A stretch of 64,000 nucleotides of DNA from Aliiroseovarius sp. S1123. Its GTDB lineage: Bacteria > Pseudomonadota > Alphaproteobacteria > Rhodobacterales > Rhodobacteraceae. Where the stretch lies: contig NZ_JALKBE010000008.1 of NCBI RefSeq assembly GCF_023015885.1, positions 62,001 to 126,000 of the forward strand, given 5' to 3'. Shown in pieces: positions 21,712-53,425 of this stretch. Position numbers and translations under genes: made by a program. The notes under the pieces were generated by a model. The model saw only the letters and a list, made by a program, of their open reading frames with translations, made no database searches and was not told the origin of the DNA. Positions within the stretch are counted from its first letter, which is position 1. Each line of letters starts with the position of its first letter.

Positions 21712-21808
21712 TCTGATTTTACATTTTGTATTACGCAATTGTTGATGGATATTAGGAGTGTTCGTTAACGCAATGAATTTATTCAGCGATGAGAAGCAGT
21801 TTCATTTG

Positions 21809-22702
21809 ATGACCCAATCCGCGCCGACTTTCATCCATATCGGGATACACAAGACCGGCTCGTCGACCTTGCAGCATAAATTTCGCACGCATGCGTCGAT
21901 CTATTATGTCGAACGTGCGGACGTTCGCAATGCATTCATTGGCCACTCTCTGGACTTCGACGATCACCCCTTTCAGTCCGAGGCCGAGCGGGCTGCGGAT
22001 CAATCCAAGGCGCTGGTCATGTCGCATGAACGGCTGTCGGGCTATCCGGCGTCGGGCGGGTTTGACCGCGAACTGATCGCGGGCCGTCTGGCCAAGGCCT
22101 TCCCCGATGCGAAGATATTGGTCGTGTTTCGCGAGCAATCCCGCTGGATCAAAAGCTTCTATCAGCAATATGTGGCAGACGGCGGCAGCCTGAAGTTGCG
22201 TGAATTTTTGACCAATCCACAGCCACAGATCTATAAACTTCCCGCGTTCGAGCTGGACTATCTGAATTATCATCAGTTGGTGTCGCTGTATCAGGGGCAT
22301 TTCGGTGCCGACAATGTTCTGGCGCTTCCGTTTGAGCTGATGGTGAAGGATTTCGATGCGTTCTCGGGGCGCCTGAATGAATTCTTCGGGTTTAATCTTG
22401 AGCTGGTGAACGAGGTGACAAACCGTGCCCGTCCGTTGATGCCGCTATTGTTCATGCGGTTCGTGAACGGGACCATCGGAAACACGCAATTGTCGCCCGG
22501 TGGATTTGTTCCACTTGGGTATCTGAAACTGGCCACCAAGCTGCTGGGTGCGATGCCGGGCGCGCGGGCTTTGGATAAACGGATTTCGGCCCGGTTTGAT
22601 CGTCTGATTGATGAGAAGATCGAAGGCCACTACGATGAAAGTAACAAGGAGCTGGAAACCCTGATAGGTATGGATTTGAAGCCATATGGGTATTTCCGCT
22701 GA
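21809..22702 (+). CDS. Sulfotransferase family protein, polysaccharide locus
   Basis: Predicted PAPS-dependent sulfotransferase of 297 residues. The 5'-phosphosulfate loop is HIGIHKTGSSTLQ near the N-terminus and the 3'-phosphate region is VVFREQSRWIKSFYQQYV near 108. No signal peptide or membrane helix is evident, so it is cytoplasmic. I favour the ATG at 21809 since the fold begins there; ATG at 21773 and GTG at 21758 add residues but neither has well-spaced ribosome binding. It is the first gene of a plus-strand block with the E1 and lipoyl-fusion genes, 148 bases before E1 alpha. Likely target: a sugar of the surface polymer. Confidence 0.8.
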   Translation: MTQSAPTFIHIGIHKTGSSTLQHKFRTHASIYYVERADVRNAFIGHSLDFDDHPFQSEAERAADQSKALVMSHERLSGYPASGGFDRELIAGRLAKAFPDAKILVVFREQSRWIKSFYQQYVADGGSLKLREFLTNPQPQIYKLPAFELDYLNYHQLVSLYQGHFGADNVLALPFELMVKDFDAFSGRLNEFFGFNLELVNEVTNRARPLMPLLFMRFVNGTIGNTQLSPGGFVPLGYLKLATKLLGAMPGARALDKRISARFDRLIDEKIEGHYDESNKELETLIGMDLKPYGYFR

Positions 22703-22850
22703 TCCGTCTGGGTCTGCAAGGCTTACGGTGCTGACGCCATTTTTCGGCGATACCTGCATCATTTAAGAAAACAACGCCGGCCGCCGGATTGATAGGCCGC
22801 GAGGGGGATAGTTGGGAAAGGTGGACCGCGTCAAAGGCGCGGAGTTTGAA

Positions 22851-23777
22851 ATGAGTCACGATTTACAAGAAATTGATACCGATGTGCTGGGTGTGGATTT
22901 GCCGCGCCAAGATCGGTTTTACCGGCAGCTGTATCTGATCCGGCGATTTGAACAGAAATTGTTAGAGCTGTTCACGAACAACATGCTGGCAGGAACGACC
23001 CATACGTCGCAAGGGCAGGAGGCCAATGCGGTGGCGATCATGGAGGCGCTGAAGCTGGATCGCGACATGGTCTGGTCCAACCACCGCTGCCATGGGCATT
23101 TCCTGTCCTATTGCGGCCAAAGCTATCGCCTTTTCGCCGAGATTCTGGGCCGCCGCACCGGGGCCTGTGGCGGGCGCGGAGGTTCGCAGCATTTGCATTG
23201 GCGCAACTTCTATTCCTCGGGCATTCAGGGTGGGTTCGCGGCGGCTGCCGTTGGTGCTGCGCTGGCTGAGAAGGATAAAGGCGCGATCAGCTGTATTTTC
23301 ATGGGCGACGGTACAATGGGCGAGGGCTCGGTCTATGAGGCATTGAACTTCGCGTCGCTTCTGTCCGCACCCGTCCTGTTCGTGGTCGAGGATAATGGCA
23401 TTGCCCAAACCACCCCGAAAGAACTGGGCGTTGCGGGATCGATCACAGATCGCGCGCGGGCCTTCGGGATCGACTGTCACCATCTGGCCAGCACCGATGC
23501 GGATGAAATCTTTGCGACGGTCAGCCCCATCGTGGACCAGATCCGCACCACCGGACGCCCGGCGTGGCTGCATCTGGAAACGGTGCGCCTTGGACCGCAT
23601 TCCAAAGGCGACGACACGCGCGACGAGGCTTTCGTGGCCGAGCTGCAAAAACGTGATCCCTTGACCGTGTATCGCGACCGCGTAGGCGACCCCGGCGCGC
23701 TAGAAACATGGTGCGACGATCACATCGCGCAGGTTCTGGATCTGGCTTTGAAGGATGATGTTGCATGCGCGTCGTAG
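22851..23777 (+). CDS. 2-Oxoacid dehydrogenase E1 component, alpha subunit
   Basis: TPP-dependent decarboxylase subunit, 308 residues. The TPP motif GDGTMGEG is at 152-159, continuing through EALNFASLLSAPVLFVVEDN; HRCHGHFL (78-85) matches the E1 alpha entry channel. The protein is close to pyruvate or acetoin dehydrogenase E1 alpha but short. The ATG at 22851 follows GGAG at six bases. The gene overlaps E1 beta by 13 bases and lies inside the polysaccharide locus, far from any E2 or E3 gene in the window. The fused lipoyl protein two genes on is the evident acyl acceptor. Which 2-oxoacid is used cannot be read from sequence. Confidence 0.9.
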   Translation: MSHDLQEIDTDVLGVDLPRQDRFYRQLYLIRRFEQKLLELFTNNMLAGTTHTSQGQEANAVAIMEALKLDRDMVWSNHRCHGHFLSYCGQSYRLFAEILGRRTGACGGRGGSQHLHWRNFYSSGIQGGFAAAAVGAALAEKDKGAISCIFMGDGTMGEGSVYEALNFASLLSAPVLFVVEDNGIAQTTPKELGVAGSITDRARAFGIDCHHLASTDADEIFATVSPIVDQIRTTGRPAWLHLETVRLGPHSKGDDTRDEAFVAELQKRDPLTVYRDRVGDPGALETWCDDHIAQVLDLALKDDVACAS

Positions 23778-24694
23778 AAGAACTTCGGGACAGCCTGTTT
23801 GGCATCATGCAGCGCGATCCGTCGACCATCGTGTTGGGCGAGGATTTGCTGGATCCCTATGGCGGGGCGTTCAAGGTCACGCAGGGTCTGTCAGATGCCT
23901 ATCCGAATAACGTCATCACCACCCCGATCTCGGAAGCCGGTTTGGTCGGTGTCGGTCTGGGCATGGCCTTGCGCGGGCGCACCGTGCTGGCCGAAATCAT
24001 GTTCGGGGACTTCCTGACCCTGACGACAGACCAGTTGGTGAACCATGCCGCTAAGGTGAAGTGGATGTTCAACGACGCGGTGGACGCAAGCCTTGTTGTG
24101 CGCACGCCTATGGGCGGTGGGCGCGGCTATGGTCCGACCCATTCGCAAAGCATCGAGAAACATTTCTGCGGCGTGCCCGGTCTGACCGTCATGGCGGTGA
24201 ACCAGTTTCAAAGCCCCGGAGATCTTTTGAAAGAGGCCGCCGAACTGGGCAGCCCGGTTCTGTTTATCGAAAACAAGATTATGTACTCGAAACTGGTCGA
24301 GCCGGACCGGCTTGTCAGCTATGACCGCCCAGACGCCGTGATCCTGACCTATGGCGGCGTGACCGAGTTCTGCGTACAGGCGGCCGAGCGTCTTTTGGAC
24401 GACGAAGAGCTGACCGTCGAAGTTGTTCCGGTTCAGCACTTGTCACCGTTGCCCGCGGATTTGATCCGTACCGCTGCCGCCAAATCTGACCGCGTGTTTA
24501 CGGTCGAGGAAGGCACGGTAAGCTGGGGGTTTGGCGCGGCTGTTGCCGAGGAAATCCTGTCGGCCGGGATCACACCGCACCACTTTCAATCGATAGCTGC
24601 TGACCCCACCGCCATCCCAAGCGCGCGCAATTGGGAGCTGGAAATCCTGCCCAGCGTCGACAAGATCGAACGCGCTGTTGTGGCCTCGTTTTAA
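23765..24694 (+). CDS. 2-Oxoacid dehydrogenase E1 component, beta subunit
   Basis: Partner of E1 alpha, 309 residues. Typical features are TPISEAGLVGVGLGMALRG, EIMFGDFLTL, the HSQSIEKHFCGVPGL segment with the conserved histidine, and a transketolase C-terminal domain (DLIRTAAAKSDRVFTVEEGT). Length is normal. It overlaps the alpha gene by 13 bases and is followed after nine bases by the lipoyl-acyltransferase fusion gene, so the three form one coupled unit. In normal complexes E1 transfers its acyl group to a lipoyl domain, which the next gene supplies. Confidence 0.92.
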   Translation: MRVVEELRDSLFGIMQRDPSTIVLGEDLLDPYGGAFKVTQGLSDAYPNNVITTPISEAGLVGVGLGMALRGRTVLAEIMFGDFLTLTTDQLVNHAAKVKWMFNDAVDASLVVRTPMGGGRGYGPTHSQSIEKHFCGVPGLTVMAVNQFQSPGDLLKEAAELGSPVLFIENKIMYSKLVEPDRLVSYDRPDAVILTYGGVTEFCVQAAERLLDDEELTVEVVPVQHLSPLPADLIRTAAAKSDRVFTVEEGTVSWGFGAAVAEEILSAGITPHHFQSIAADPTAIPSARNWELEILPSVDKIERAVVASF

Positions 24695-24703
24695 GGAAAG
24701 ATC

Positions 24704-25792
24704 ATGGCACACATCGACATCATAACCCCCCGGGTGAATGCAAACGAAGACGAGGTTCTGGTGGCCGAACTGCATGTTGCGGTGGGCGATCAGGTTGACG
24801 TGGGCGATCTTCTGATCTCGGCGGAAACGACCAAAGCCTCGGTTGATATCGAGGCGACGCATGCGGGGACGGTGTCAAAGATCAACGGCAAGAAAGGGCG
24901 AATGATCGCCAGTGGCAGCGTGATCGTGGTGATCGACATCGGCGGCGATAGCGCCGCTGCGGGCGACGATGCGGGCGGGGCCGACGGTGGCAGCGCCGAG
25001 GTGAAAGTGACCACTAAGGCTCGGTTGCGCGCGGAAGAGCTGGGGATTGATCTGGACGCGGTTCTACCAAAAGCAGGACGCATCGGCGTGGCCGAGGTCG
25101 AGGCCGCTGCAGGCAAAGGCGCGGATGGCGGACCACAAGTGACGGCTATGCAGGCCGTTCTGGTCGGCGGCGGCGGGCACGGCGCCACGATTGGCGAGAT
25201 CGCGGTTGCCTGCGGCTGGGATCTGATTGGCGCGGTGGACGGGAAGCTTCCCAAAGGCACGCAGGTCATCTCGGGGGTCGAGGTGATCGCAACGGATGAG
25301 GCGCTGCAGTCGCTTTATGACAGCGGTGTGCGGGTGGCGTTTGTCGGGATCGGCGGGGCGACCTCGTCCGAGACGCGACAGGCCGTGTTTGAAAAATTGC
25401 AAGCAATTGGTTTCACTTTGCCACCATTGGTGCATCCGACCGCCCATTTCGGCGCGGATGTGAAACTGGGAGCGGCCAGTTATGTGCTGCCTAATGCGAT
25501 GGTTGGGCCGCGCTGCCGGATCGGGGCGAATGTGATCGTGAACTCGTCTAGCACCGTTGCGCATGATTGCGTCGTGGGCGACCATGCGCATTTGACACCC
25601 GCTGCCATTCTGGCGGGCAACGTCCGGATTGGGGCAAGCAGCGTAGTTGGTATGGGCGCGTCTGTGCTGTTCGGCGTTGAGGTGGGGCAGGGCTGCTTGA
25701 TCCACAACAACGTCTCGGTCCTGATGGATGTGCCGGACTTCACTGAGCTGTCGTTGGAACACGCGCCGAAACGCCGGGATCTGGACGCCTAG
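24704..25792 (+). CDS. Lipoyl / E1-E3-binding / left-handed beta-helix acyltransferase fusion
   Basis: Three-domain protein of 362 residues. Residues 1-80 are a biotinyl/lipoyl domain with the modification site ETTKAS (lysine 44). Residues about 103-136 match a peripheral-subunit-binding domain (RLRAEELGIDLDAV, then GRIGVAEVEAA). Gly/Ala/Asp-rich linkers separate them, as in E2 proteins. In place of the 2-oxoacid E2 catalytic domain, residues 149-362 are a PglD/NeuD-type sugar acyltransferase: VLVGGGGHGA nucleotide-sugar loop (152-161), then hexapeptide beta-helix repeats with the catalytic-type histidine 287 in STVAHDCVVGD. It is encoded nine bases after E1 beta. I infer that E1-made acyl groups are carried on lysine 44 and passed to an amino sugar. 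The stop overlaps that of the convergent gene. Confidence 0.88.
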   Translation: MAHIDIITPRVNANEDEVLVAELHVAVGDQVDVGDLLISAETTKASVDIEATHAGTVSKINGKKGRMIASGSVIVVIDIGGDSAAAGDDAGGADGGSAEVKVTTKARLRAEELGIDLDAVLPKAGRIGVAEVEAAAGKGADGGPQVTAMQAVLVGGGGHGATIGEIAVACGWDLIGAVDGKLPKGTQVISGVEVIATDEALQSLYDSGVRVAFVGIGGATSSETRQAVFEKLQAIGFTLPPLVHPTAHFGADVKLGAASYVLPNAMVGPRCRIGANVIVNSSSTVAHDCVVGDHAHLTPAAILAGNVRIGASSVVGMGASVLFGVEVGQGCLIHNNVSVLMDVPDFTELSLEHAPKRRDLDA

Positions 25793-26862: not shown

Positions 26863-27870
26863 TTACTCCGCGGCATTGGACAGCGTTGATTTCGAGGGAT
26901 CCTGCGGTGGGGTCGCGGTGCTTCCACCCTCGTCATCGGGCGTATTCAACTGCGTCTCGATCAGGGGACGATGCAGGTTCTTCGACTGGATGAAGATACG
27001 GCCAATGTATTCGCCAAGAATGCCAAGGAACATGGCGTTCAACGTCATCGAGAGCAACAGCAGTACGGTGGTCGTTGCAAAACCGGCGGGCCAGTCCTGT
27101 CCGAAGACCAGCTTGGCGACGATGTAGAACATCATCAACAGGAACGTCCCCAGCCCGACGAAGAGGCTGATATAGGACGCCAAGCGCAGTGGCAGAAGCG
27201 AATGGTTGATCAACCCGTCAATCGCAAGGGACAGCATGGCGCGGAAGGGGAACTTTGTTTCGCCCTCTAGCCGGGCCTGACGGTCATAATCAAACCCGAT
27301 CTGGCTGAACCCCATACCGCTGATCAAGCCGCGCACATAGGGCGAGCGGTCGTCGACGCGCTTCAGCTCGTCCAGAATGCGGCGGTCGGTCAGGCGAAAC
27401 TCGCCCGCGTTGCGGGGCAGGTTATCTTCGCTGATCCGGTCGATCAACGCATAAAAGAACCGGCGTGCGAAGGCGGTAATGCGCCCGTCCGGCAAGCTGC
27501 GGCGCACACCATAGACCACTTGATGCCCCTGTTTCCAAAGGTCCAGCATATGCGGGATCAGCTCGGGCGGGTCTTGCAGGTCGCAATCCAGCTGAATGGC
27601 ACAAGCCCCGCGCGCCGCACGGTACCCGGTCAGAACCGAAGCCTGATAGCCCACGTTCTTAGAAAAGCGGATGACGCGGACATTCGGGTCGTTCTGTGCA
27701 ATCTCGGAGAGGATCAGGAAGGTGTCATCGTCCGAGTGGTTGTCGGTGAAAATGATCTCGGGCTCATAGTCGTCGAGCTCGTCAAACACGGCCAGAACGC
27801 GGTCATAGGCACGGCGGACATTGGCCTCTTCATTCAGGGCGGGGATTAGGACTGAAATTAACGTGGTCAT
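26863..27870 (-). CDS. GtrB-like polyprenyl-phosphate glycosyltransferase (GT2)
   Basis: Family 2 glycosyltransferase of 335 residues. The nucleotide-sugar site begins SVLIPALNEEANV, with DNHSDDDT and the metal-binding LDCDLQDPPE motif. Two C-terminal transmembrane helices (about 225-250 and 265-290) give the GtrB/DPM1 layout, which transfers a sugar to undecaprenyl phosphate on the cytoplasmic face. GtrA and a GT-C enzyme, the usual partners, are encoded in the same minus-strand block at 34856 and 33213. Start overlaps the previous gene by four bases. Confidence 0.88.
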   Translation of the reverse strand: MTTLISVLIPALNEEANVRRAYDRVLAVFDELDDYEPEIIFTDNHSDDDTFLILSEIAQNDPNVRVIRFSKNVGYQASVLTGYRAARGACAIQLDCDLQDPPELIPHMLDLWKQGHQVVYGVRRSLPDGRITAFARRFFYALIDRISEDNLPRNAGEFRLTDRRILDELKRVDDRSPYVRGLISGMGFSQIGFDYDRQARLEGETKFPFRAMLSLAIDGLINHSLLPLRLASYISLFVGLGTFLLMMFYIVAKLVFGQDWPAGFATTTVLLLLSMTLNAMFLGILGEYIGRIFIQSKNLHRPLIETQLNTPDDEGGSTATPPQDPSKSTLSNAAE

Positions 27871-28835
27871 GCGCTCCTCCGTCCAAAGGGGGCCAGCGGG
27901 TCCAGCTCCTCCATCGCGTTGATCACGCGCGACAGGCCCGCGCGCAAATCAAGGCTGGGCCGCCAGCCGATTAGATCATGCACCCGGTCCGAGATCAGGC
28001 AAAGCTCGTGGCCCGCGTCTGGGTGATGCGAATGCAAGGTTACAAGGTCGCGCGGTGCGCCGGTCAGCGCCAGCACCAGTTCAGCCACCTCGCGCATGCT
28101 GGGTGCCGTTGCAGATCCCAAGTTCATCACGTCGGGAAGCGGGCCATCGACGCGGCCAAGGCCAATCAGGGCGGTGACGATGTCGGACACATGCACCAGA
28201 TCGCGACGATCCTCGGGCCGTTTGACATCAAAAGGCTCGCCCGCCAGACAGGCTTCGATCAGGGAGGGGACGATGAAATCGCCAGCCTGATCCGGTCCAT
28301 AGGTCAGCGCCAACCGCGCGGTCGTGGCTTGGAATGGAAGGTGTGGGCGCGCAGCATTCAGGTAATGGGTGCCCGACAACATGGACGCCGCATAGGCGTT
28401 GGTTGGCAGTGTATGCGCGTTTTCATCTTGCGGCGCTGCGGCGCGACCGTACTCGGCGATGGTCCCTGCACGGATGAAGGCTTTGGGCGGGATCTGCAGT
28501 GCATCGGCAGCCCGGATCATGGTCAGAAGCGGCGCGACGTTTGCCTCGTGCGCAGTTTCCAGATCGCGCAGCGGGTCCGAGGACAGGAAACGGGTTTGTG
28601 CACTGAGGTGATAGATCACATCGGGCGCAATCTGCGCCATCTGCCGTGTAACGCCGTCCAAATCCAGCGGATCAATCCAATAGATGCCGATGCGCGCGGC
28701 GATGTCCTGAAGGCGGGCGGTGGACGACCCCGGGCGGGACAGCACGGCAACTTCGTCTCCGGCTTCGACCAACGCGCGTGCAAGATGCGAGCCGATGAAG
28801 CCCGTACCACCGGATATCAGGATACGACGGCTCAT
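27867..28835 (-). CDS. NAD-dependent sugar epimerase/reductase (extended SDR) with altered YxxxK
   Basis: Extended SDR of 322 residues with NAD motif GGTGFIG (9-15). It probably acts on a nucleotide sugar, plausibly as the 4-ketoreductase that finishes the CDP-3,6-dideoxyhexose made by the neighbouring rfbF-G-H genes (abequose or paratose synthase role). The active-site region is unusual: the motif reads Y148-A-A-S-M152, so the catalytic lysine is methionine, and the usual serine before it is threonine 125 (AGTIAEYG). Activity may thus be altered. It overlaps its neighbours by four bases on both sides. Confidence 0.82.
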   Translation of the reverse strand: MSRRILISGGTGFIGSHLARALVEAGDEVAVLSRPGSSTARLQDIAARIGIYWIDPLDLDGVTRQMAQIAPDVIYHLSAQTRFLSSDPLRDLETAHEANVAPLLTMIRAADALQIPPKAFIRAGTIAEYGRAAAPQDENAHTLPTNAYAASMLSGTHYLNAARPHLPFQATTARLALTYGPDQAGDFIVPSLIEACLAGEPFDVKRPEDRRDLVHVSDIVTALIGLGRVDGPLPDVMNLGSATAPSMREVAELVLALTGAPRDLVTLHSHHPDAGHELCLISDRVHDLIGWRPSLDLRAGLSRVINAMEELDPLAPFGRRSA

Positions 28836-29935
28836 ACACTTAGATCCTTCTGAAGGGCCTTGTCGCGACTGCGTCGGTTGCGAAAAAGCGTGACGGGCAG
28901 CTTTTCAAACAGCAGATAGGACACATGCGAAGTGGCAATGGCGACGATGAAGGTGACCACGCCGAACAGCAGGACACTGGCCCAAACGTTGTCCGAGAAC
29001 AGGCCGAGCTTGTGAAACACTAGCCGCATGGGCATGTAAATATAGGGGTGCACCAGATACAGGCTGTAGCTGATCGTGCCCAGATACTGCGCCCAGCGGG
29101 CGGACAGAAGCCGCGCGGTGACGCTGTCTTTTTCGACCGCGAAAAGAAAATAGAGGAAGGTCAGGGCCATGCAGATCAGGGTGATCGGTTCGCGCAATTC
29201 GCCTGCACGGAAATCGAAATGCGCGCGAGACGCGGCATAGCCCAGCGACAGGGCGGTGATGACCTCGAGCAGCGCACGCGCCGGAAGCTTCTCGACGACG
29301 CGTCGGCCGTGGAGCACGAAGACAAGGATGCCCGCGACGAAATAGATGGATTTCGGGAACAGCACCAAGAACGCGACCGAGGCCAGCGCCATGATCAACT
29401 GAAGTCCGCGGAGCCTTTGGGTGATCGCAAAGGCGCCCAGCCCGGCCAGAAAATAGAACATCATCTCGTAGGTCAGGCTCCACGCGTTCGGGGTCAGCTG
29501 TTCTGTCCCGGCCAGCAGGTTGGTGAAACTCAGCGCATAAAGGATGGTTGGCAGATCATTCAGCTTGGGCTGCAGGTTCGTGACCGCGTTGCCTGCGATG
29601 AAGATCAACGAGAAGACCAGAAACAGCGGATAGATCCGCAGCATACGGCGGGTCGCGAAATCGCGCGGTTCATAGCGGAAGGCGCTGGGCAGGATGACAA
29701 AGCCCGATATGGCGAAGAACAGGTAGACAAAGAAGGTGCCGAAGTTCCACAGCGGCTCGGACATGGCCAGATAGGCGGCGTTGTCCGCATAGACATGTTC
29801 CGCCGTGCCGCCGATGATATGGGCAAACAGCACCATTGCCGACGCCAGGCCCCTCAGCCCATGAATGCCGGTATTGTGGCCGCCCTCGTAGGGCAGCCAA
29901 TCCGGCAACTTATGAGGGGCGCGCAGGTTGGTCAT
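28832..29935 (-). CDS. OafA-type membrane O-acyltransferase
   Basis: Acyltransferase-3 family protein, 367 residues with about ten hydrophobic helices. The N-terminal helix has GLRGLASAMVLFAHIIGG, carrying the conserved R and the catalytic-type histidine of this family. A basic C-terminal tail follows. Members move acetyl groups across the inner membrane to O-acetylate polysaccharides. Overlaps of four bases join it to the RfbH-like gene and the SDR gene. Confidence 0.88.
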   Translation of the reverse strand: MTNLRAPHKLPDWLPYEGGHNTGIHGLRGLASAMVLFAHIIGGTAEHVYADNAAYLAMSEPLWNFGTFFVYLFFAISGFVILPSAFRYEPRDFATRRMLRIYPLFLVFSLIFIAGNAVTNLQPKLNDLPTILYALSFTNLLAGTEQLTPNAWSLTYEMMFYFLAGLGAFAITQRLRGLQLIMALASVAFLVLFPKSIYFVAGILVFVLHGRRVVEKLPARALLEVITALSLGYAASRAHFDFRAGELREPITLICMALTFLYFLFAVEKDSVTARLLSARWAQYLGTISYSLYLVHPYIYMPMRLVFHKLGLFSDNVWASVLLFGVVTFIVAIATSHVSYLLFEKLPVTLFRNRRSRDKALQKDLSV

Positions 29936-31137
29936 TGGGCGGCAATCCCCTGATGCTGACGCGCGAAACCGGTGAAGACCTCATGCATATAGTCCATGTG
30001 GGCGGGTGTCAGGCCGTGGTGCAGGGCCAGCAGAACCCCGCCTTTCATTACCTCATCCGCCACCGGATAGCCCGCCGGGTCGGTCTTGCAGGTGACATTC
30101 TGCATGGCGGGCTGGCGCAGGATGTTGCCGGTAAAGACCGGGCGGGTTTGAATGTCGGCGGTTTCCAGATGGATTTGCAGATCGCGCCGCGTGAAGGGCG
30201 CGCCCTCGCGCAGGGTCAGCGGGAAAGACAGCCAACCGGTGCGGCTGTTCGGCAGCTGCTCGGGCAAGATGAACCAGTCTTCATAGGCTTTGAAAAAGGC
30301 CATATGGGCGTCGAAATTCTTTTCGCGTTCGCTGATGTTGTGGTCCAGCTTATCGAGTTGAACCAGACCAAAGGCTGCGCTGACTTCCGAGGGTTCAAGG
30401 TTATAGCCCAGATCCTCGAACAGGAATTTGGCGTCATAGTCGATGCCGTCGACCTTCACGTTAAAGCGGTTCTCGATGGTCTCGGATTCGACAAATAGGG
30501 ACGAGCTGCGCCCCCACGAGCGTAAAAGCAGCGCCCTGCGGCCCAGTTCTTCGTCATTCACGCACAGCATTCCGCCGTTGCCCGCGCCGTTGATGACGTG
30601 CGAGCCATAGAAGCTGGTGGTCGACACGTCCGAGAATTTGCCGGTGCTGTCCGATCCGATCGTGGCGCCCAGCGTGTCGGCGCTGTCTTCGATGACTTTC
30701 AGGCTGTGGGCGTCGGCGATCTCGCGAATGCGTTGCCAGTCGGGCAGATTGCCAATTAGGGACGGGATCATCACGGCCGAGGTGTTGGGTGTGATCATCC
30801 GCTCAATCGCGTCCACGTCGATGTTATAGGTGCCGGGGGCGACATCTACGAAAGCGGGGACCAGCCCTTGGCGCACCAAGGGCGCGACCGTCGTGGCAAA
30901 GGTCAGGGCCGGGGTGATCACCTCGCTGCCTTTCGGCAGGTCCAAGATCTCGACCGCCAGATAATTCGCCGAAGAGCCCGAATTCACCATGATCCCGTGG
31001 GATTTGGCAAAAAGCGCGGCGACGCGCTCTTGCATCTTGCGGACGCGCGGCCCCATCTGAGTCGACGTTTTCAGTACTTCGACGACAGCGTCGATTTCGT
31101 CCTGACCATGAACGGTTTGACCGTAATTTACGCGCAT
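29932..31137 (-). CDS. rfbH: RfbH/ColD-like PLP sugar 3-dehydrase
   Basis: DegT-family PLP enzyme of 401 residues, start ATG 31137 after GGAG. The internal-aldimine lysine is replaced by histidine 180 (SFYGSHVIN), the mark of 3-dehydrases (RfbH/DdhC and ColD) that remove the sugar 3-hydroxyl. The [2Fe-2S] cysteine cluster that RfbH carries after the SWGR segment is absent here: the stretch after LRSWGR has no cysteine. ColD-type enzymes also lack it and use glutamate and PMP without a reductase. Adjacent rfbG and rfbF supply CDP-4-keto-6-deoxyglucose, so the product is probably a CDP-4-keto-3,6-dideoxyhexose. A longer upstream frame is spurious. Confidence 0.85.
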   Translation of the reverse strand: MRVNYGQTVHGQDEIDAVVEVLKTSTQMGPRVRKMQERVAALFAKSHGIMVNSGSSANYLAVEILDLPKGSEVITPALTFATTVAPLVRQGLVPAFVDVAPGTYNIDVDAIERMITPNTSAVMIPSLIGNLPDWQRIREIADAHSLKVIEDSADTLGATIGSDSTGKFSDVSTTSFYGSHVINGAGNGGMLCVNDEELGRRALLLRSWGRSSSLFVESETIENRFNVKVDGIDYDAKFLFEDLGYNLEPSEVSAAFGLVQLDKLDHNISEREKNFDAHMAFFKAYEDWFILPEQLPNSRTGWLSFPLTLREGAPFTRRDLQIHLETADIQTRPVFTGNILRQPAMQNVTCKTDPAGYPVADEVMKGGVLLALHHGLTPAHMDYMHEVFTGFARQHQGIAAQ

Positions 31138-31157
31138 AGTGGTCTCCTTCCCGGTCG

Positions 31158-32282
31158 CTATTGGGCGGCCAGTGATGTTGAATTCTGTGGTGCCCCCGAC
31201 ATCAGCGCGCCGTATTGCGCGATCTGCGTCAGGGTGAAATCTTTCATGTTTTCTTGGGCGTGATGGGCGCGATGCCAGTCGACGGTCATCCGAACGGCTG
31301 CGGGCAGATCCAGCTGCGGGCGCCAGCCCAATTGCGTTTGTGCCTTGGTGCTGTCCAGCCGCAGGACCCCGGCTTCGTGCATGTTCGGGTCGGCCTGACC
31401 GAATTCGAACCGCGGCCCGTCGCGGCCCCAGCTGTCTTGCATCAAGCCTGCTAGGTCGCGGACATTGACGGTGCCCGAGACGTCGGGGCCGAAGTTCCAA
31501 GGCCCCGCGAAGGGCGCGCCATCGGACAAGAGCCGCGCGGCCAAAGCCAGATAGCCAGACAGAGGTTCCAGCACGTGCTGCCACGGACGGATGCTGGAGG
31601 GGTTGCGGATCTGCACGGGCTCCCCTGCCACCGTGGCCCGCACGATGTCGGGGATCAGGCGATCCTCGCCCCAGTCGCCGCCGCCAAACACATTGCCCGC
31701 CCGCACCGTCGCCAATTGCGGTCCATCTGGCGCGTTGAAAAACGAACGCCCATAGGCTTGCGCGATCAGTTCTGTCGCCCCTTTCGAGGCGCTATAAGGA
31801 TCCGAGCCGCCCATCGGGTCATTCTCGCGATAGCCCCAGCCCCACTCGTTGTTCTCGTAACACTTGTCGCTAGTTACGACGATTGCAGCTTTCAGCGACG
31901 GCATCGCGCGGGCCAGATCCAAGACATGTGCGGTGCCCGAGACGTTGGTCGCGATGGTTGCCGCCGGTTCCACATAGGACCGCCGCACAAAGGGTTGCGC
32001 GGCCATGTGGATCACCAGATCGGCGTCAATGTCGCGTGCTTGTGCCAGCAGGGCGTCACGATCGCGAATGTCGATCAAACGGCTGTCCATGTCTGCTGTC
32101 AGCCCGGTCGCATCGCACAGGTTCGGCCCGGGCTCGGGCGCAAGCGCAATGCCGGACACACGGGCGCCAAGCTGCATCAGCCAATGGCTGATCCAACCGC
32201 CCTTGAACCCGGTGTGACCGGTGACAAGAACGTGGCGACCTTTGAATGCGCCGCCAAAATCAGAGGAAACAGCGCCGGACAT
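31158..32282 (-). CDS. rfbG: CDP-glucose 4,6-dehydratase
   Basis: Converts CDP-glucose to CDP-4-keto-6-deoxyglucose. The 374-residue extended SDR has TGHTGFKG (about 21-28), the characteristic RfbG variant of the glycine motif, and the active-site TSDKCYENNEWGWGYRE and YSASKGATE (YxxxK) segments. Start at ATG 32282, seven bases after GAGG; an upstream in-frame TTG at 32294 is less likely. It starts nine bases before the rfbF stop... that is, rfbF ends at 32291 just upstream, and rfbH follows after 20 bases. Confidence 0.94.
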   Translation of the reverse strand: MSGAVSSDFGGAFKGRHVLVTGHTGFKGGWISHWLMQLGARVSGIALAPEPGPNLCDATGLTADMDSRLIDIRDRDALLAQARDIDADLVIHMAAQPFVRRSYVEPAATIATNVSGTAHVLDLARAMPSLKAAIVVTSDKCYENNEWGWGYRENDPMGGSDPYSASKGATELIAQAYGRSFFNAPDGPQLATVRAGNVFGGGDWGEDRLIPDIVRATVAGEPVQIRNPSSIRPWQHVLEPLSGYLALAARLLSDGAPFAGPWNFGPDVSGTVNVRDLAGLMQDSWGRDGPRFEFGQADPNMHEAGVLRLDSTKAQTQLGWRPQLDLPAAVRMTVDWHRAHHAQENMKDFTLTQIAQYGALMSGAPQNSTSLAAQ

Positions 32283-32290
32283 CTTGGCCC

Positions 32291-33097
32291 TCAAATCGCA
32301 AGGGCTGTGATGTCTGACGGCAGTTCTTCATGGAACCGCAGCCAGGGCGGAGTTTCTTCTTCGCACAGGTCGTTCAGCGTGTTGCGATCCCGGATCGTGT
32401 CCATCGGGTGCCAGAAGCCGTCATGTTTGTACGCCATCAGCTCGCAATCCTGCGCCATCTGGGTCAGGGGCGATTGTTCAAGCGGTTCCATGTCATCGAC
32501 GAAATAATCCATGACCTCAGGCTCGAACACGAAGAAGCCCCCATTGATCCAGGTATCGCGACGGCGGACCTTTTCGGTGAAGGCTTCCACCCGGTCACCA
32601 GCCAGTTCGATATTGCCGAACCGGGCCGGAGGCTGCACCGCGGTGACAGTCGCCAGTTTGCCGTGGGACTTATGGAACTCGATCAGTGCGTTGATGTCGA
32701 TGTTTCCCAACCCGTCCGAGTAGGTGACCATGAAGGGGCCGGGCCTCAGCCATTCTTTCAAGCGGCGAATGCGGCCACTGGTCATGGTCTTCGGGCCGGT
32801 GTCCACGACGGACACGTTCCACCCACCGGGAGAGGCAGGCACAAGGTCCATCTTGCCGCTGTCCAAAGACACGGTGATGTTGTTGGCGATCAGGTGATAG
32901 TTCGCAAAATACTGTTTCAGCGACAGAGATTTATACCCCGCTGCGACAATGAAGTCATTATGCCCAAATTGGCTGTAGATATCCATGACGCGGGTGATAA
33001 TTGGACGGCCACCGACCTCGACCATAGGTTTTGGGATGGTGACGGTTTCCTCGGCCAGACGCGAGCCCAAGCCACCGGCTAGCAAGATTGTCTGCAT
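32291..33097 (-). CDS. rfbF: Glucose-1-phosphate cytidylyltransferase
   Basis: Forms CDP-glucose from CTP and glucose-1-phosphate, first step of the 3,6-dideoxyhexose branch. The 268-residue protein starts QTILLAGGLGSRLAEET with PKPMVEVGG, the nucleotidyltransferase signature, and has the RfbF-type WINGGFFVFEPEV segment. The ATG follows a G-rich ribosome site. It heads the rfbF-G-H group and is separated from the upstream GT-C gene by 115 bases containing an inverted repeat, so a promoter may lie there. Confidence 0.94.
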   Translation of the reverse strand: MQTILLAGGLGSRLAEETVTIPKPMVEVGGRPIITRVMDIYSQFGHNDFIVAAGYKSLSLKQYFANYHLIANNITVSLDSGKMDLVPASPGGWNVSVVDTGPKTMTSGRIRRLKEWLRPGPFMVTYSDGLGNIDINALIEFHKSHGKLATVTAVQPPARFGNIELAGDRVEAFTEKVRRRDTWINGGFFVFEPEVMDYFVDDMEPLEQSPLTQMAQDCELMAYKHDGFWHPMDTIRDRNTLNDLCEEETPPWLRFHEELPSDITALAI

Positions 33098-39244: not shown

Positions 39245-40105
39245 TTAACGGGCGCTTTCGTTGGTCTTGGAAGTGCCGCGTGAGTGGGTCCAATGCGGCA
39301 GAAAGCCGGGTGCCAGCTTGGACAATTCTGACTTGTCGGCCAGATAGAACTCCTCCATCGCCTGTTTCAGATCGTCTGGAAGCGCTGGATAGGTGAAGGG
39401 CTTGGCAACAAGGTTCCGCAATGTGCTGACCGGCGGCCGGGTGCGGATCGGGTCGAGAAGCGGACGAAGCGGTGCGAGGACACGCCGCAAAGGTCCCGGA
39501 ACTGCCGCGGCATGTTTGTCCTTTACCTTCTCGCGCACTGGCGGGGTCAGCTGGCCGGTATAGCCGATGTGATCCGCGACCCATTGCAATTGCCGATCCG
39601 GATGCGTGGCGACATCTTCAAATGCCAAAAGCAGGATTTGCTTGTGCGGGAACAGGGCATAGAAGCGCTTCAGATGGTGACCATAGAGCCCATCATTCAG
39701 AAACCGTTCGGTCGCGGCTTTTTGCGGATCAAGGTGGCGGCGGATATCCTCGTTCACCTCTCCGCGGCGCAGCAACATGCAGTAATCCGAGTACGCACGC
39801 TGAACGGGGTCGCGCATCTGAACGATCATTTTCACGTCCGGATAAGTGGCATGAATGCGCTCGGCGGCTTCGGGCTGGGTCAGATAAGAGTTTGATTTCT
39901 CGCCTACGATGTCATCGGGCTGAGCGCCGTCGAACTGAGCGTTGAACCAATCAAAGCCCTTGTCATAGACACGCGAGAAGAAGTGCAGTTCGGGCGCGGG
40001 CATGAAGATACCGGGCGAGGCCGAAAGGGAGTGTTGCTCCCATGTCGTCGCGCATTTGGCAGCGCCGATGATCAGAAAGTCGATGGGACGGGGCGTGGTG
40101 GTCAT
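39245..40105 (-). CDS. Second sulfotransferase, polysaccharide locus
   Basis: PAPS-type sulfotransferase of 286 residues. The 5'-phosphosulfate loop reads FLIIGAAKCATTW near residue 10 and the 3'-phosphate site MIVQMRDPVQRAYSDYCM near 88. No membrane helix. Only distantly similar to the sulfotransferase at 21.8 kb, so they probably act on different positions. It is the last gene of the wzc operon, three bases after a GT4 gene, pointing to sulfation of the polymer's repeat unit. Confidence 0.87.
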   Translation of the reverse strand: MTTTPRPIDFLIIGAAKCATTWEQHSLSASPGIFMPAPELHFFSRVYDKGFDWFNAQFDGAQPDDIVGEKSNSYLTQPEAAERIHATYPDVKMIVQMRDPVQRAYSDYCMLLRRGEVNEDIRRHLDPQKAATERFLNDGLYGHHLKRFYALFPHKQILLLAFEDVATHPDRQLQWVADHIGYTGQLTPPVREKVKDKHAAAVPGPLRRVLAPLRPLLDPIRTRPPVSTLRNLVAKPFTYPALPDDLKQAMEEFYLADKSELSKLAPGFLPHWTHSRGTSKTNESAR

Positions 40106-50014: not shown

Positions 50015-50623
50015 ATGAATCGATTGCTCGAGATTTTGATCTGCCTGTGCATGTTGGTGGTTGCCGTGCCCCTCTGCGCGGTGACCTATCTGATCGTCGT
50101 CAAGGCCCTCGGCCATCCGGTGATGTTTCGCCAGACACGGGCGGGGAAGGGCGGTGTGCCTTTCGACGTGATCAAGTTTCGAACCCTCACGGATGACCGC
50201 GACGAACATGGCATTTGGTTGCCGGATGAAGAGCGTCTGACCCCCGCCGGGAAATTCCTGCGCCGCACGCGGTTTGACGAGCTTCCGCAGCTATTCATCA
50301 TTTTGGCGGGCCGCATGGCACTGGTCGGCCCCCGTCCGCTGATGGGCGAGACAATCGACGGGTTCGGTGCGGATGGGATCAAGCGCGGGTCGGTCCGACC
50401 GGGCCTGACCGGATGGTCTCAGGTCAGCGGAAATACTGCGCTGAACGATGACGAGAAGCTGACGCTGGATCTGTGGTATGTGGCCCATCGCACGACCGCG
50501 TTAGATTTTCGTATTCTGGTCGAGACGATCGGTGTTGCCCTGTTCGGAGAGCATCGGCGCGAAGATCGGATCGCGGCGGCAGAGCATTGGGGAAGCACAT
50601 TAAACGCGCAGGCCCAAGCATGA
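50015..50623 (+). CDS. PglC-like monotopic phosphoglycosyltransferase
   Basis: Starts lipid-linked assembly by moving a phospho-sugar from a UDP-sugar to undecaprenyl phosphate. The 202-residue protein is the small form: a reentrant hydrophobic helix (about 5-30), then KFRTL (54-58), the catalytic D88-E89 in RFDELPQL, and VGPRPLM. Small PglC-type enzymes commonly use UDP-diNAc-bacillosamine or related amino sugars, which matches the dehydratase and aminotransferase here. I chose ATG 50015 over TTG 49997. It overlaps the formyltransferase-like gene by four bases (ATGA). Confidence 0.9.
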   Translation: MNRLLEILICLCMLVVAVPLCAVTYLIVVKALGHPVMFRQTRAGKGGVPFDVIKFRTLTDDRDEHGIWLPDEERLTPAGKFLRRTRFDELPQLFIILAGRMALVGPRPLMGETIDGFGADGIKRGSVRPGLTGWSQVSGNTALNDDEKLTLDLWYVAHRTTALDFRILVETIGVALFGEHRREDRIAAAEHWGSTLNAQAQA

Positions 50624-51549
50624 CGTCCGGCATGAAGATTGTTTTGGTCGGCGCGGTGGAAAGCACCCAGATTGCCCTGAATGCGCTTTGTACCTCGGGC
50701 CACGCGCCCGCAATGGTCGTGACCTTGCCGCCCGAGCTTGCGCATCGCCATTCGGATTTTGTCGACGTGGCGCCGCTGGCGCAGGAATATGGCTGCGCCC
50801 TGCATCTGACTGGCAAAAGTGACAGCGCAGAAACGATCTCCGCCATCCGTGCGCTCGACCCGGATTTGGTGCTGGTGATCGGCTGGTCTCAGCTGTGCGG
50901 AGCCGAGTTTCGCGCGGTGCCAAAGCTGGGATGCATCGGATTTCACCCCTCGGACCTACCCAAATTGCGGGGGCGGGCGGTTTTGCCGTGGACGATTCTC
51001 TTGAGGGAACGGGTTATCGGCACCTCGCTTTTTTGGCTTGGCGAGGGCGCAGATACCGGCCCCATCGCCGCGAAATCACGGTTCGAGGTCGACCCCGAGA
51101 CGATCACCGCGCGGGAACTTTATGACCGCCATATGGAGGCGCTCGCTGACATGTTGCCCCCGCTGATGGAGCGCATCGCGTCAGGCGACGTTCCCCGCGT
51201 TCCGCAGGACGAGGCTGGGGCCAGCCTATGTGCCTTGCGTCGGCCCGAGGATGGATTGATCGACTGGACCACCCCCGCCGCCGACATTCACCGCCTGATC
51301 CGCGCAGCGGGCCCCCCTTATCCCGGCGCGTTCACCCATGCGGCGGATGGGACCAAGCTGGTGTTGACGGCTGTCCGCCACACACCGCGCGCGGGCTACT
51401 ATATCGGTCTGCCCGGGCAGGTGCAGGACATCGATGGGCGAACCTTTACGGTCGCATGCGGTGACGGAAACTGCATTGATATTCTTGATTGGCAGGGGGC
51501 GGAGGCGCCTCCGAAATTACATAGTAAACTTGGAAAGATGACGACATGA
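50620..51549 (+). CDS. Formyltransferase-like protein with altered active site
   Basis: Formyl_trans_N fold of 309 residues with an FMT-like C-terminal domain (DWTTPAADIHRLIRA). It probably uses N10-formyl-tetrahydrofolate to formylate an amino sugar. The catalytic H109 (FHPSDLP) and D145 (GADTGP) are present, but the asparagine that should lie two residues before the histidine is glycine 107 (CIGFHP). I recall polysaccharide-locus relatives with this same change and the following GRA(x)PW pattern. It overlaps the PIG-L gene by four bases. An N-terminal longer frame is spurious. Confidence 0.8.
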   Translation: MTSGMKIVLVGAVESTQIALNALCTSGHAPAMVVTLPPELAHRHSDFVDVAPLAQEYGCALHLTGKSDSAETISAIRALDPDLVLVIGWSQLCGAEFRAVPKLGCIGFHPSDLPKLRGRAVLPWTILLRERVIGTSLFWLGEGADTGPIAAKSRFEVDPETITARELYDRHMEALADMLPPLMERIASGDVPRVPQDEAGASLCALRRPEDGLIDWTTPAADIHRLIRAAGPPYPGAFTHAADGTKLVLTAVRHTPRAGYYIGLPGQVQDIDGRTFTVACGDGNCIDILDWQGAEAPPKLHSKLGKMTT

Positions 51550-52250
51550 GCACGCTTGCCTCGACCGCATTTGGCGGCGATCCCAAAGCACCGGTCCTAG
51601 TGATTGCCCCCCATCCTGATGACGAGGTGCTGGGCGTCGGCGGCACCATCGCGCGGCTGGCCGACGAGGGACGCGAGGTGCATGTGGCGGTGGTCACCAA
51701 AGGGGGGCTGCCGCTCTTTACCGAAGACATGACCGCCCGCGTCCGGGCCGAGGCCCGCGCCGCCCATGATCATCTGGGTGTGGCCAAGACCCATTGGCTG
51801 GATTTCCCCGCTGCCGAACTGGCCGAGCATCCGCATGGCGGGTTGAACGCTGGCCTTGGCAAGCTGGTGCGAGATCTGGCGCCTGGGCTGATTTTCGTCA
51901 CTCATCCCGGCGACATTCACATGGACCACCAGCTGTCGTTCCTGTCGACGCTGGTCGCCAGCCGACCGCATCAGCAGGATTATCCGACCACGATTTTGGC
52001 CTATGAGACGCTGTCGGAAACCAACTGGAATGCGCCCTATCTGACGCCCGCTTTCGTGCCGAACGTGTTCATCGACGTCACGGAAACGCTCGAGCGCAAG
52101 CTGGAGGCGTTCCAGATGTTTGCGAGCCAGGTGAAAGAGCCGCCGCATGAGCGATCCGTCAACGCCTTGCGCGCTTTGGCGACCTTGCGCGGGGCCACGG
52201 TGCATCGCCACGCGGCCGAGGGTTTTGTCCTTGTGCGCAGCGTGATCTGA
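51546..52250 (+). CDS. PIG-L/LmbE family deacetylase
   Basis: Zinc-dependent N-deacetylase of 234 residues. The PHPDDE motif is at 22-27 and the second metal site in HPGDIHMDHQ near 122-131. Such enzymes remove N-acetyl groups from GlcNAc-type sugars, lipid- or nucleotide-linked. Sitting between a formyltransferase-like gene (four-base overlap) and an aminotransferase gene (11 bases), it may free an amine that is then re-acylated, for example by formyl transfer. Confidence 0.88.
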   Translation: MSTLASTAFGGDPKAPVLVIAPHPDDEVLGVGGTIARLADEGREVHVAVVTKGGLPLFTEDMTARVRAEARAAHDHLGVAKTHWLDFPAAELAEHPHGGLNAGLGKLVRDLAPGLIFVTHPGDIHMDHQLSFLSTLVASRPHQQDYPTTILAYETLSETNWNAPYLTPAFVPNVFIDVTETLERKLEAFQMFASQVKEPPHERSVNALRALATLRGATVHRHAAEGFVLVRSVI

Positions 52251-52261
52251 GGGAGACACCC

Positions 52262-53425
52262 ATGTCCAACTGGCCCGTATTCGATGAAGAACAGATCGCT
52301 GCCGTGACCGAGGTTTTGCGCTCGGGCAAGGTGAATGCGTGGACTGGCCCAGATGTGTGGGCCTTCGAGGAAGAGTTTGCCGATTGGTTCGGCGTGCCGC
52401 ACGCGATTGCGATGGCCAACGGCACCGTCACGCTGGACGCGGCCCTGCATGTATTGGGCCTGAGTGAGGGCGACGAGGTCATCGTCACGCCCCGCAGCTT
52501 CATCGCGTCTGCCAGCTCGGTGTCCCTGAAAGGCGGCGTGCCGGTCTTCGCGGATGTCGGCCCAGACAGCCAGAACATTACGGCGGACACCATTGCACCC
52601 CTGATCACGCCCCGCACCAAGGGGATCATCCCGGTGCATCTGGGCGGCTGGCCCTGCGATATGCCCGCCATCATGGATCTGGCGCGGGCGCATGACCTGT
52701 GGGTGATCGAAGATTGCGCGCAGGCGCATGGTGCAATGATTGGTGATCAGCATGTGGGTAGCTTCGGCACCTTCGGGTCATTCTCGTTCTGTCAGGACAA
52801 GATCATGTCCACGGGTGGCGAGGGCGGCATACTGACCACAAACGACCGTGACCTCTGGTCCAAAGCGTGGAGCTTCAAGGACCACGGCAAGGATTATGAT
52901 GTGGTGTTCAACACCGTGCACCCTCCGGGCTTTCGTTGGCTGCATGGGGCCGGGCCGGGGACGAACCTGCGTATGACAGGGCCGTCTGCGGCCATTGGAC
53001 GGGTACAGTTGAAACGTCTAGCGGACTGGCGCGCGCATCGTGCGGCGAACGCAGGCATTCTGGCGCAAGCTCTGTCAGAATTGGAAGCGATCCGCGTGCC
53101 GAAATTGCCGGATGACATGACCCACGCCTATTACCGTTTCTATGCCTTCGTACGCCCCGAAGCGTTGAAAAACGACTGGAGCCGCGACCGCATCATCGCC
53201 GAGGTCTCGGGCGCGGGGTTCCCGATATTCTCGGGCAGTTGTTCCGAGATCTATCGCGAAGGCACTTTCACGCGCTATGGTCTGGGACCAGACGCGCCGC
53301 TTCCGGTGGCGCGGGAATTGGGCGACACTAGCTTGTGTTTCTTGGTGGATCCGACGTGGACCACAGAGCGCACGCAGGACTTGGGTGACTGTTTGCAAAC
53401 GGTGGTCGTGAAGGCGACACGGTAA
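52262..53425 (+). CDS. DegT/DnrJ/EryC1/StrS sugar aminotransferase
   Basis: PLP-dependent nucleotide-sugar transaminase of 387 residues with an intact lysine 180 (SFCQDKIMSTGGEGG), unlike the dehydrase at 30 kb. It has the family-typical VHLGGWPCDMPAIMDLA and VIEDCAQAHGA segments. The most economical role is PglE-like, adding a 4-amino group to the 4-keto sugar from the FlaA1/PglF-type dehydratase. The ATG follows GGGAGA. Confidence 0.9.
   Translation: MSNWPVFDEEQIAAVTEVLRSGKVNAWTGPDVWAFEEEFADWFGVPHAIAMANGTVTLDAALHVLGLSEGDEVIVTPRSFIASASSVSLKGGVPVFADVGPDSQNITADTIAPLITPRTKGIIPVHLGGWPCDMPAIMDLARAHDLWVIEDCAQAHGAMIGDQHVGSFGTFGSFSFCQDKIMSTGGEGGILTTNDRDLWSKAWSFKDHGKDYDVVFNTVHPPGFRWLHGAGPGTNLRMTGPSAAIGRVQLKRLADWRAHRAANAGILAQALSELEAIRVPKLPDDMTHAYYRFYAFVRPEALKNDWSRDRIIAEVSGAGFPIFSGSCSEIYREGTFTRYGLGPDAPLPVARELGDTSLCFLVDPTWTTERTQDLGDCLQTVVVKATR

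Follow-up and report, generated by a model that had tools for sequence, protein, structure and literature searches.

Sugar acyltransferases of the left-handed beta-helix fold are known to use acyl-coenzyme A (acyl-CoA) or, in LpxA and LpxD, acyl-acyl carrier protein (acyl-ACP); the latter two draw long acyl chains from the free carrier protein and involve no lipoyl group. The original work on a lipoyl-bound glycolyl intermediate is said to be that of Peng in PNAS in 2012. The systems NapB/NapD, QncN/QncL/QncM, and SclQ1-4, with their E1-like alpha and beta parts, lipoyl domain, and attached acyltransferase, are described as supplying a glycolyl unit to an ACP (PMC6335953, PMC7570522). SclQ1-4 are described there as homologous to QncN/QncL/QncM, which direct the attachment of a C2 glycolicacyl unit, the proposed source of the two carbons being a ketose phosphate, for example xylulose 5-phosphate (PMC6335953), and DinS/DinU are described likewise (PMC7570522). 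Here we analyze a three-gene cassette at positions 22851-25792 of a 64,000-nucleotide stretch of the Aliiroseovarius sp. S1123 genome (contig NZ_JALKBE010000008.1, positions 62,001 to 126,000; the whole stretch is called the window), in which an E1 dehydrogenase-like pair precedes a lipoyl protein fused to a sugar acyltransferase.

We estimate the probability at roughly one in two that this cassette performs CoA-independent sugar acylation, a sugar receiving its glycolyl group from the lipoyl arm. The cassette looks like a glycolyl-lipoyl front end of the two-component-transketolase type in which the E2-type acyltransferase has been swapped for a sugar acyltransferase. Like the NapB/NapD, Qnc, and Scl systems, it has an E1-like alpha/beta pair, a lipoyl domain with its lysine, an attached acyltransferase and, presumably, a non-CoA acceptor. 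Unlike these systems, which belong to a nonribosomal peptide synthetase (NRPS) setting, its acyltransferase is a PglD/NeuD beta-helix with no E2-type domain, and it is found among sugar or polysaccharide genes. A preliminary description of this DNA knew of no described system of this kind, which is true in part: a lipoyl relay to a non-CoA acceptor is already known from NapB/NapD, QncN/QncL, and SclQ1-4, where lipoyl-borne glycolyl goes to an ACP, and it is the fusion to a sugar acyltransferase, together with the sugar setting, that we have not found described. No lipoyl-linked sugar acyltransferase was present among the literature matches listed, subscription journals being mostly outside their scope. 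Flagellin islands with lipoyl proteins, considered as a precedent, were discarded: in PMC4875605, "lipoylation" means fatty acid chains.

The cassette and its conservation

The three genes are on the forward strand. The first encodes an E1 alpha-like thiamine diphosphate (ThDP) subunit (22851-23777, with an alternative TTG start at 22812; Pfam E1_dh, 1.1e-41) and overlaps by 13 bases with the gene of an E1 beta-like subunit (23765-24694; Transket_pyr 1.8e-25, Transketolase_C 9.3e-16), which is separated by nine bases from the fusion gene (24704-25792). The fusion is a single frame of 362 residues that matches Biotin_lipoyl (4.4e-12 with the whole protein, 9.4e-13 with residues 1-146), PglD_N (3.9e-08), and Hexapep. 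From Pfam/NCBIfam, Foldseek, and a structural model, it comprises a lipoyl domain (residues 1-80, 24704-24943) with the putative lipoyl lysine K44 (24833-24835) in the motif ETTKAS, a segment resembling a peripheral-subunit-binding domain (PSBD; residues 101-138, 25004-25117), a PglD_N sugar-nucleotide-binding domain (residues 149-236, 25148-25411), and a left-handed beta-helix acyltransferase domain (residues 237-345, 25412-25738) with H287 (25562-25564). The open reading frames and Pfam/NCBIfam matches confirm the gene order, the overlap, and the nine-base gap given in the preliminary description, and K44 in its motif and a PglD/NeuD-like beta-helix with H287 in place of the E2 catalytic domain are confirmed as well. 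Its statement that no E2 or E3 gene is nearby was also borne out. In the 3.23 Mb assembly (21 contigs), the contig carrying the window, C20, contains no E2 catalytic domain (PF00198, E<=0.001) and no E3 (E<=1e-60); three E2 and three E3 genes over cut-off are found on other contigs.

Two further Aliiroseovarius loci, L004 and L005, carry the cassette. Compared with these, the three window genes show ratios of nonsynonymous to synonymous substitution rates (dN/dS) of 0.023-0.055 at dS of 0.44-1.4, and none of the lipoyl, PglD_N, and beta-helix parts exceeds 0.083; residues 139-148, a short linker, reach 0.39 between the window and L005. The three copies are under strong purifying selection. The L004 genes are 96% identical to those of the window and are located beside genes for a BCCT transporter, an AraC regulator, and an acyl-CoA dehydrogenase (L004 5369-13452); these surroundings are unlike those of the window, and the cassette genes thus stay together at two different sites. 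In the window and in L005, a sulfotransferase gene precedes the cassette; it has no match in L004 at 1e-6, where a relative of a different window sulfotransferase (39245-40105) is found. One more genome of the same genus (G373) gave no cassette match at the thresholds used.

Profile searches for the fusion covered Pseudomonadota, with 394 genomes of the family, 385 of the class, and 398 of the phylum, and further sets from the order of G991 (217), the order of G767 (27), the family of G1106 (12), and the order of G1020 (147), all these sets partly overlapping. Full-length fusions were found at at least nine loci (G000, G313, G767, G1020, G991, G918, and G1106, together with L004 and L005), corresponding to seven lineages when Aliiroseovarius is counted once; nine is a lower bound, because the candidates scored per genome were limited (up to five in the family, class, and phylum sets, nine in the order of G991, and 13 in the order of G1020). 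An E1 gene is directly upstream of the fusion in all nine loci, as separate alpha and beta genes in the window, L004, L005, G767, and G1020 and as one fused gene in G313, G991, and G1106; the G918 contig starts inside E1 beta. The lipoyl lysine is kept in all nine fusions, within ETxK in eight and EGSK in G1106. The search for the same architecture beside E1 genes, suggested at the outset, thus found it in six further genomes, and the invariable adjacency to E1 upholds the idea that the three parts belong together. From purifying selection and this recurrence, the architecture is more than chance. A frame fusion or assembly artefact is ruled out by the three Aliiroseovarius copies, the six other genomes, and the dN/dS values. 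No tblastn match spanning 80% of the fusion was found in plasmid records, and none to the fusion in the viral contigs scanned.

The beta-helix domain and presumed CoA-associated residues

The best Foldseek match of the beta-helix is PerB, the GDP-perosamine N-acetyltransferase (4eaa; E 4e-16, TM-score 0.89 on the target). LpxA/LpxD also gave weaker matches. Like PglD, PerB, VioB, and NeuD, the fusion combines PglD_N, a beta-helix, and the catalytic histidine; unlike these enzymes, it carries additional N-terminal lipoyl and PSBD-like domains, and its score for TIGR03570 (NeuD_NnaD) falls just below the cut-off (158.8 vs 160.8 bits). The nine fusions were compared in an alignment with 112 stand-alone proteins related to NeuD/PglD, which came from the cassette searches after exclusion of frames lacking a stop within the locus, matches without PglD_N, duplicates, and one chance match (L065). 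H287 is kept in every fusion and every stand-alone protein, and Gly305 is found in eight of nine and 108 of 112, respectively. Differences are seen at the end of the domain. In the last coil, ahead of the turn, 107 of the 112 stand-alones and no fusion have Ala335 (the window fusion has Asn335); Gly336 is present in 106 and four, respectively, and the turn proline in 82 and one. With the fusions counted as seven lineages, the Fisher p values are 1.4e-8 for Ala335 and 0.003 for the turn proline, the stand-alones being mutually non-independent. These aligned columns replace an earlier tail pattern, G.P[AG], found in 76 of 113 stand-alones and one of nine fusions.

For the PglD-type enzyme Pcryo_0637, the published account gives His 142 as the presumed base and reports that the Asn-Pro peptide of the final reverse turn adopts the cis form when acetyl-CoA is bound and is trans without CoA (PMC8040287). 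By comparison, the fusion beta-helix appears to have retained its catalytic histidine while features probably associated with CoA were eroded, and a loss of CoA use, which we infer from these residue changes, would agree in direction with a tethered lipoyl arm. The same residues bear on the possibility that the beta-helix is an ordinary acetyl-CoA sugar acetyltransferase, its lipoyl domain only docking on E1 or being regulated by it. The PerB/PglD-type fold and histidine and the near-miss NeuD_NnaD score are what one would expect of such an enzyme, yet Ala335 is lost from all nine fusions and the turn proline from eight, and we consider this explanation very unlikely.

Upstream of these domains, the PSBD-like segment is modeled as two helices (residues 104-113 and 129-136; pLDDT 71-86 for the block), near the PSBD placed at about 103-136 in the preliminary description, an assignment weaker than stated there; the Pfam E3_binding family gives sub-threshold matches only, in two relatives. 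In the AlphaFold model, the lipoyl part, which only four of the 20 rows were chosen to span (window, L004, L005, and L037), has a pLDDT of about 30 and is unusable.

Relatives of the E1 pair and the acyl donor

We compared the cassette E1s with RenH, with three actinobacterial pairs, and with other E1 pairs taken from the same genomes, labeled canonical. In best-stretch phmmer scores against the window E1 alpha, cassette E1s outside Aliiroseovarius reach 198-349 bits, RenH and the actinobacterial pairs 216-228, and canonical E1s 45-147; against the window E1 beta, the corresponding ranges are 171-314, 173-224, and 50-140, the transketolase-like frame of L215 being left out. The G918 E1 beta, cut by the contig end, scores 137.7 and 67.0 in two stretches, the better of which overlaps the canonical range. 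In maximum-likelihood trees with 12 canonical alpha rows and 14 canonical beta rows (two genes being present twice in the latter), the cassette E1s, RenH, and the actinobacterial pairs split from the canonical E1s with support of 100/99 for alpha and 100/100 for beta; five G313 and one G767 E1 matches, long 2-oxoglutarate-type frames, and transketolase-like frames were kept out of these trees. The alpha motifs G[GS]SQH and HSK[GS]DD occur in all 12 cassette and RenH-type rows and in none of the 12 canonical rows, and the beta motifs IMF[GA]DF and R[GA]YG[PA]THS in 13 of 13 and 0 of 14, respectively. An ordinary pyruvate dehydrogenase (PDH) E1 that happens to lie beside an unrelated acetyltransferase is ruled out by these trees. 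The order of E1, lipoyl, and PSBD-like parts, with an E3 in G991, resembles PDH, branched-chain ketoacid dehydrogenase, and acetoin dehydrogenase; unlike these complexes, the cassette has no E2 CoA acyltransferase domain, and its E1 falls outside the canonical clade sampled.

RenH is followed by RenI, which has lipoyl and 2-oxoacid_dh domains (L227 12001-15169), and the actinobacterial relatives (L228-L230) have E1 alpha, E1 beta, and a lipoyl-2-oxoacid_dh gene in a row, which is the SclQ1-4 layout. An ACP domain match is found just upstream in L229 and L230, in two of the three actinobacterial loci. RenH/RenI and L228-L230 are likely glycolyl-ACP makers. Searches with the L229 and L230 ACPs (phmmer, E<=0.1) gave no match in the window or at the other eight cassette loci; the search is insensitive, because these two ACPs failed to find each other.

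The preliminary description assumed that a 2-oxoacid sets the acyl type. This part of the proposal did not hold: since the trees join the E1 pair to RenH and the actinobacterial pairs, which resemble two-component transketolases, and set it apart from the canonical E1s sampled, a 2-oxoacid donor is unsupported and, judging from these sequences, probably wrong. The transfer from lipoyl-lysine to an amino sugar proposed with it is favored by the eroded CoA-associated features and the retained histidine, even if the donor named for it is not. The lipoyl relay could also be kept with a 2-oxoacid donor, decarboxylation giving acetyl-, propionyl-, or another acyl-lipoyl that is passed to the sugar. 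The E1 Pfam family and ThDP motifs are consistent with this, as are the nearest solved structures by sequence, which are PDH and 2-oxoacid E1s; set against them are the clade and the four motifs shared by every cassette and RenH-type row and by no canonical one, and we regard such a donor as unlikely.

In the glycolyl relay that we propose, E1 alpha/beta would act as a two-component-transketolase-like ThDP enzyme whose two-carbon unit most likely comes from xylulose 5-phosphate or another ketose phosphate, and the lipoyl group predicted on K44 would oxidize this unit to give glycolyl-dihydrolipoyl-lysine. The tethered arm would then enter the beta-helix site, where H287 would help a sugar amine, or possibly a hydroxyl, to accept the glycolyl group. 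The dihydrolipoyl group would be reoxidized by a dihydrolipoyl dehydrogenase (E3), a housekeeping enzyme in the window organism and an operon-encoded one in G991.

Gene neighborhoods, candidate acceptors, and possible N-glycolyl sugars

Apart from L004, the loci have in common genes for surface polysaccharides or flagellin glycans, and the acceptor pathway varies among the loci. G1106 and G991 provide the best evidence, from gene content, for a putative amine acceptor. G1106 (L191 9822-16923, minus strand) encodes PseB, PseC, and PseF, each scoring over cut-off, followed by a second aminotransferase (DegT), the fused E1, and the fusion. Within the first 120 bases of the fused E1 frame, the sole candidate start codon is an ATG located 13 bases past the aminotransferase stop; the adjoining regulator and sensor-kinase genes look flagellar by eye. 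G991 (L166 9206-17415, minus strand) has an operon of sialic-acid type, on one strand and with abutting or overlapping genes, which encodes, in order, a CMP-sugar synthetase (162.7 with the PseF model, below its cut-off of 205.7), a NeuB-like protein (389.3 vs a cut-off of 399.65), NeuC (417.4, over 235.9), an E3 (447.1, over 408.8), a polysaccharide deacetylase, the fused E1, the fusion, an ABC-2 membrane protein, and an ABC ATPase.

The other loci are more diverse. In G767 (L164), genes for FlgK and flagellin come first. They are followed by RfbF and RfbG (both over cut-off) with a C-methyltransferase and a 3,5-epimerase, then by the E1 alpha/beta pair and the fusion, and finally by PhyH, a methyltransferase, and a carbamoyltransferase; two frames lack annotation. 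The G1020 fusion is adjoined by an acyltransferase-3 gene, with glycosyltransferases present; a phosphoenolpyruvate carboxylase gene lies near this cassette on the opposite strand (L165 3226-5943, plus strand). The G313 locus includes genes for GDSL/AlgX-type proteins, a carbamoyltransferase, and polysaccharide export.

In the window, the cassette is preceded by a sulfotransferase gene (21758-22702, forward strand; Sulfotransfer_3), possibly on the same transcript, and neighbored by CDP-sugar genes on the reverse strand (27867-33097) encoding RfbF and RfbG (TIGR02623 and TIGR02622, over cut-off), an RfbH-like dehydrase (below cut-off), an acyltransferase 3, and a short-chain dehydrogenase/reductase. 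The translated dehydrase (29932-31146, minus strand) has a histidine at the apparent pyridoxal-phosphate lysine position and no cysteine cluster; we presume that it may act like the iron-sulfur-free ColD on a CDP sugar. Together, the CDP-glucose genes and this dehydrase point to an amine-free 3,6-dideoxyhexose. The CDP-sugar genes were first assumed to be the acceptor pathway, an idea that was dropped; we do not rely on them because they have no match in the 21 kb of L004. A UDP-GlcNAc 4,6-dehydratase-like gene, below the PseB cut-off, is located 11 kb from the cassette, and a DegT aminotransferase and a formyltransferase about 25-27 kb from it. Formyltransferase, PIG-L deacetylase, and DegT aminotransferase genes in a row (50473-53425, forward strand) form a second sugar-modification set. 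The amino-sugar acceptor of the preliminary description thus fits G1106 and G991 better than the window, whose cassette adjoins no true aminotransferase, and the candidates in the window are an amine produced elsewhere, a hydroxyl group, or a keto carbon to which a branch is added.

The last candidate corresponds to the main structural alternative, which casts the E1 pair as a carboligase that extends a 4-keto sugar by a two-carbon branch, as proposed for AviB1/AviB2 and Pau11/Pau12, and gives the fusion a different role. AviB1/AviB2 and Pau11/Pau12, PDH-like proteins named for the two-carbon branches of avilamycin and paulomycin, are likewise E1-like pairs in a sugar pathway setting (PMC4425429), and a CDP-glucose 4,6-dehydratase gene is near the cassette in the window, L005, and G767. 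A carboligase would not need a lipoyl domain, yet this domain is retained with its lysine in all nine fusions, unlike the Avi and Pau case, where the main text of the paulomycin paper has 0 mentions of lipoyl (PMC4425429). Moreover, G991 has an E3 and no annotated CDP-glucose gene, and G1106 has amino-sugar genes. We find the carboligase explanation quite unlikely.

Several points weigh against a glycolyl relay to a sugar. The cassette function is predicted from sequence and models. The need for an E3, part of the initial proposal, is supported by the G991 operon, and this is the only one of the nine loci with an operon-borne E3. Pfam E3_binding (PF02817) has no match at E<=10 in residues 1-146 of the window fusion, and because the family model misses this protein, the PSBD-like domain is assigned from its position and predicted helices. 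The sugar genes adjoining the cassette are CDP-glucose-based in the window, L005, and G767, with no usual aminotransferase annotated. RenH sits among the cassette E1s in the trees, so that E1 type alone leaves the acceptor unfixed; RenH and the actinobacterial pairs are assigned by homology, the assayed NapB and QncN being outside the trees. Finally, the G918 fusion retains the proline turn, and the turn proline was matched by motif and residue 335 by alignment column rather than on the coordinates of a CoA complex.

If the relay operates in G991, its N-glycolyl product would be made through de-acetylation and re-acylation, unlike the route of the animal hydroxylase CMAH. We tentatively suggest, as a possibility well short of even odds, that bacteria make N-glycolyl sugars from a ketose phosphate via E1 and a lipoyl arm, with no acyl-CoA and no hydroxylase, the G991 product being an N-glycolyl nonulosonic acid such as N-glycolylneuraminic acid (Neu5Gc). 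For Neu5Gc, one account describes CMAH in animals and scavenging by bacteria (PMC3928833), and the literature matches listed give the same two sources, which is not proof that no bacterial route is known. If our proposal is true, the lipoyl arm would be a further type of acyl carrier for sugars, and the E1 partner would set the acyl group on the surface glycan. Glycan decoration would then be tied to central sugar metabolism, and the cassette would offer a testable bacterial route to N-glycolyl sugars.

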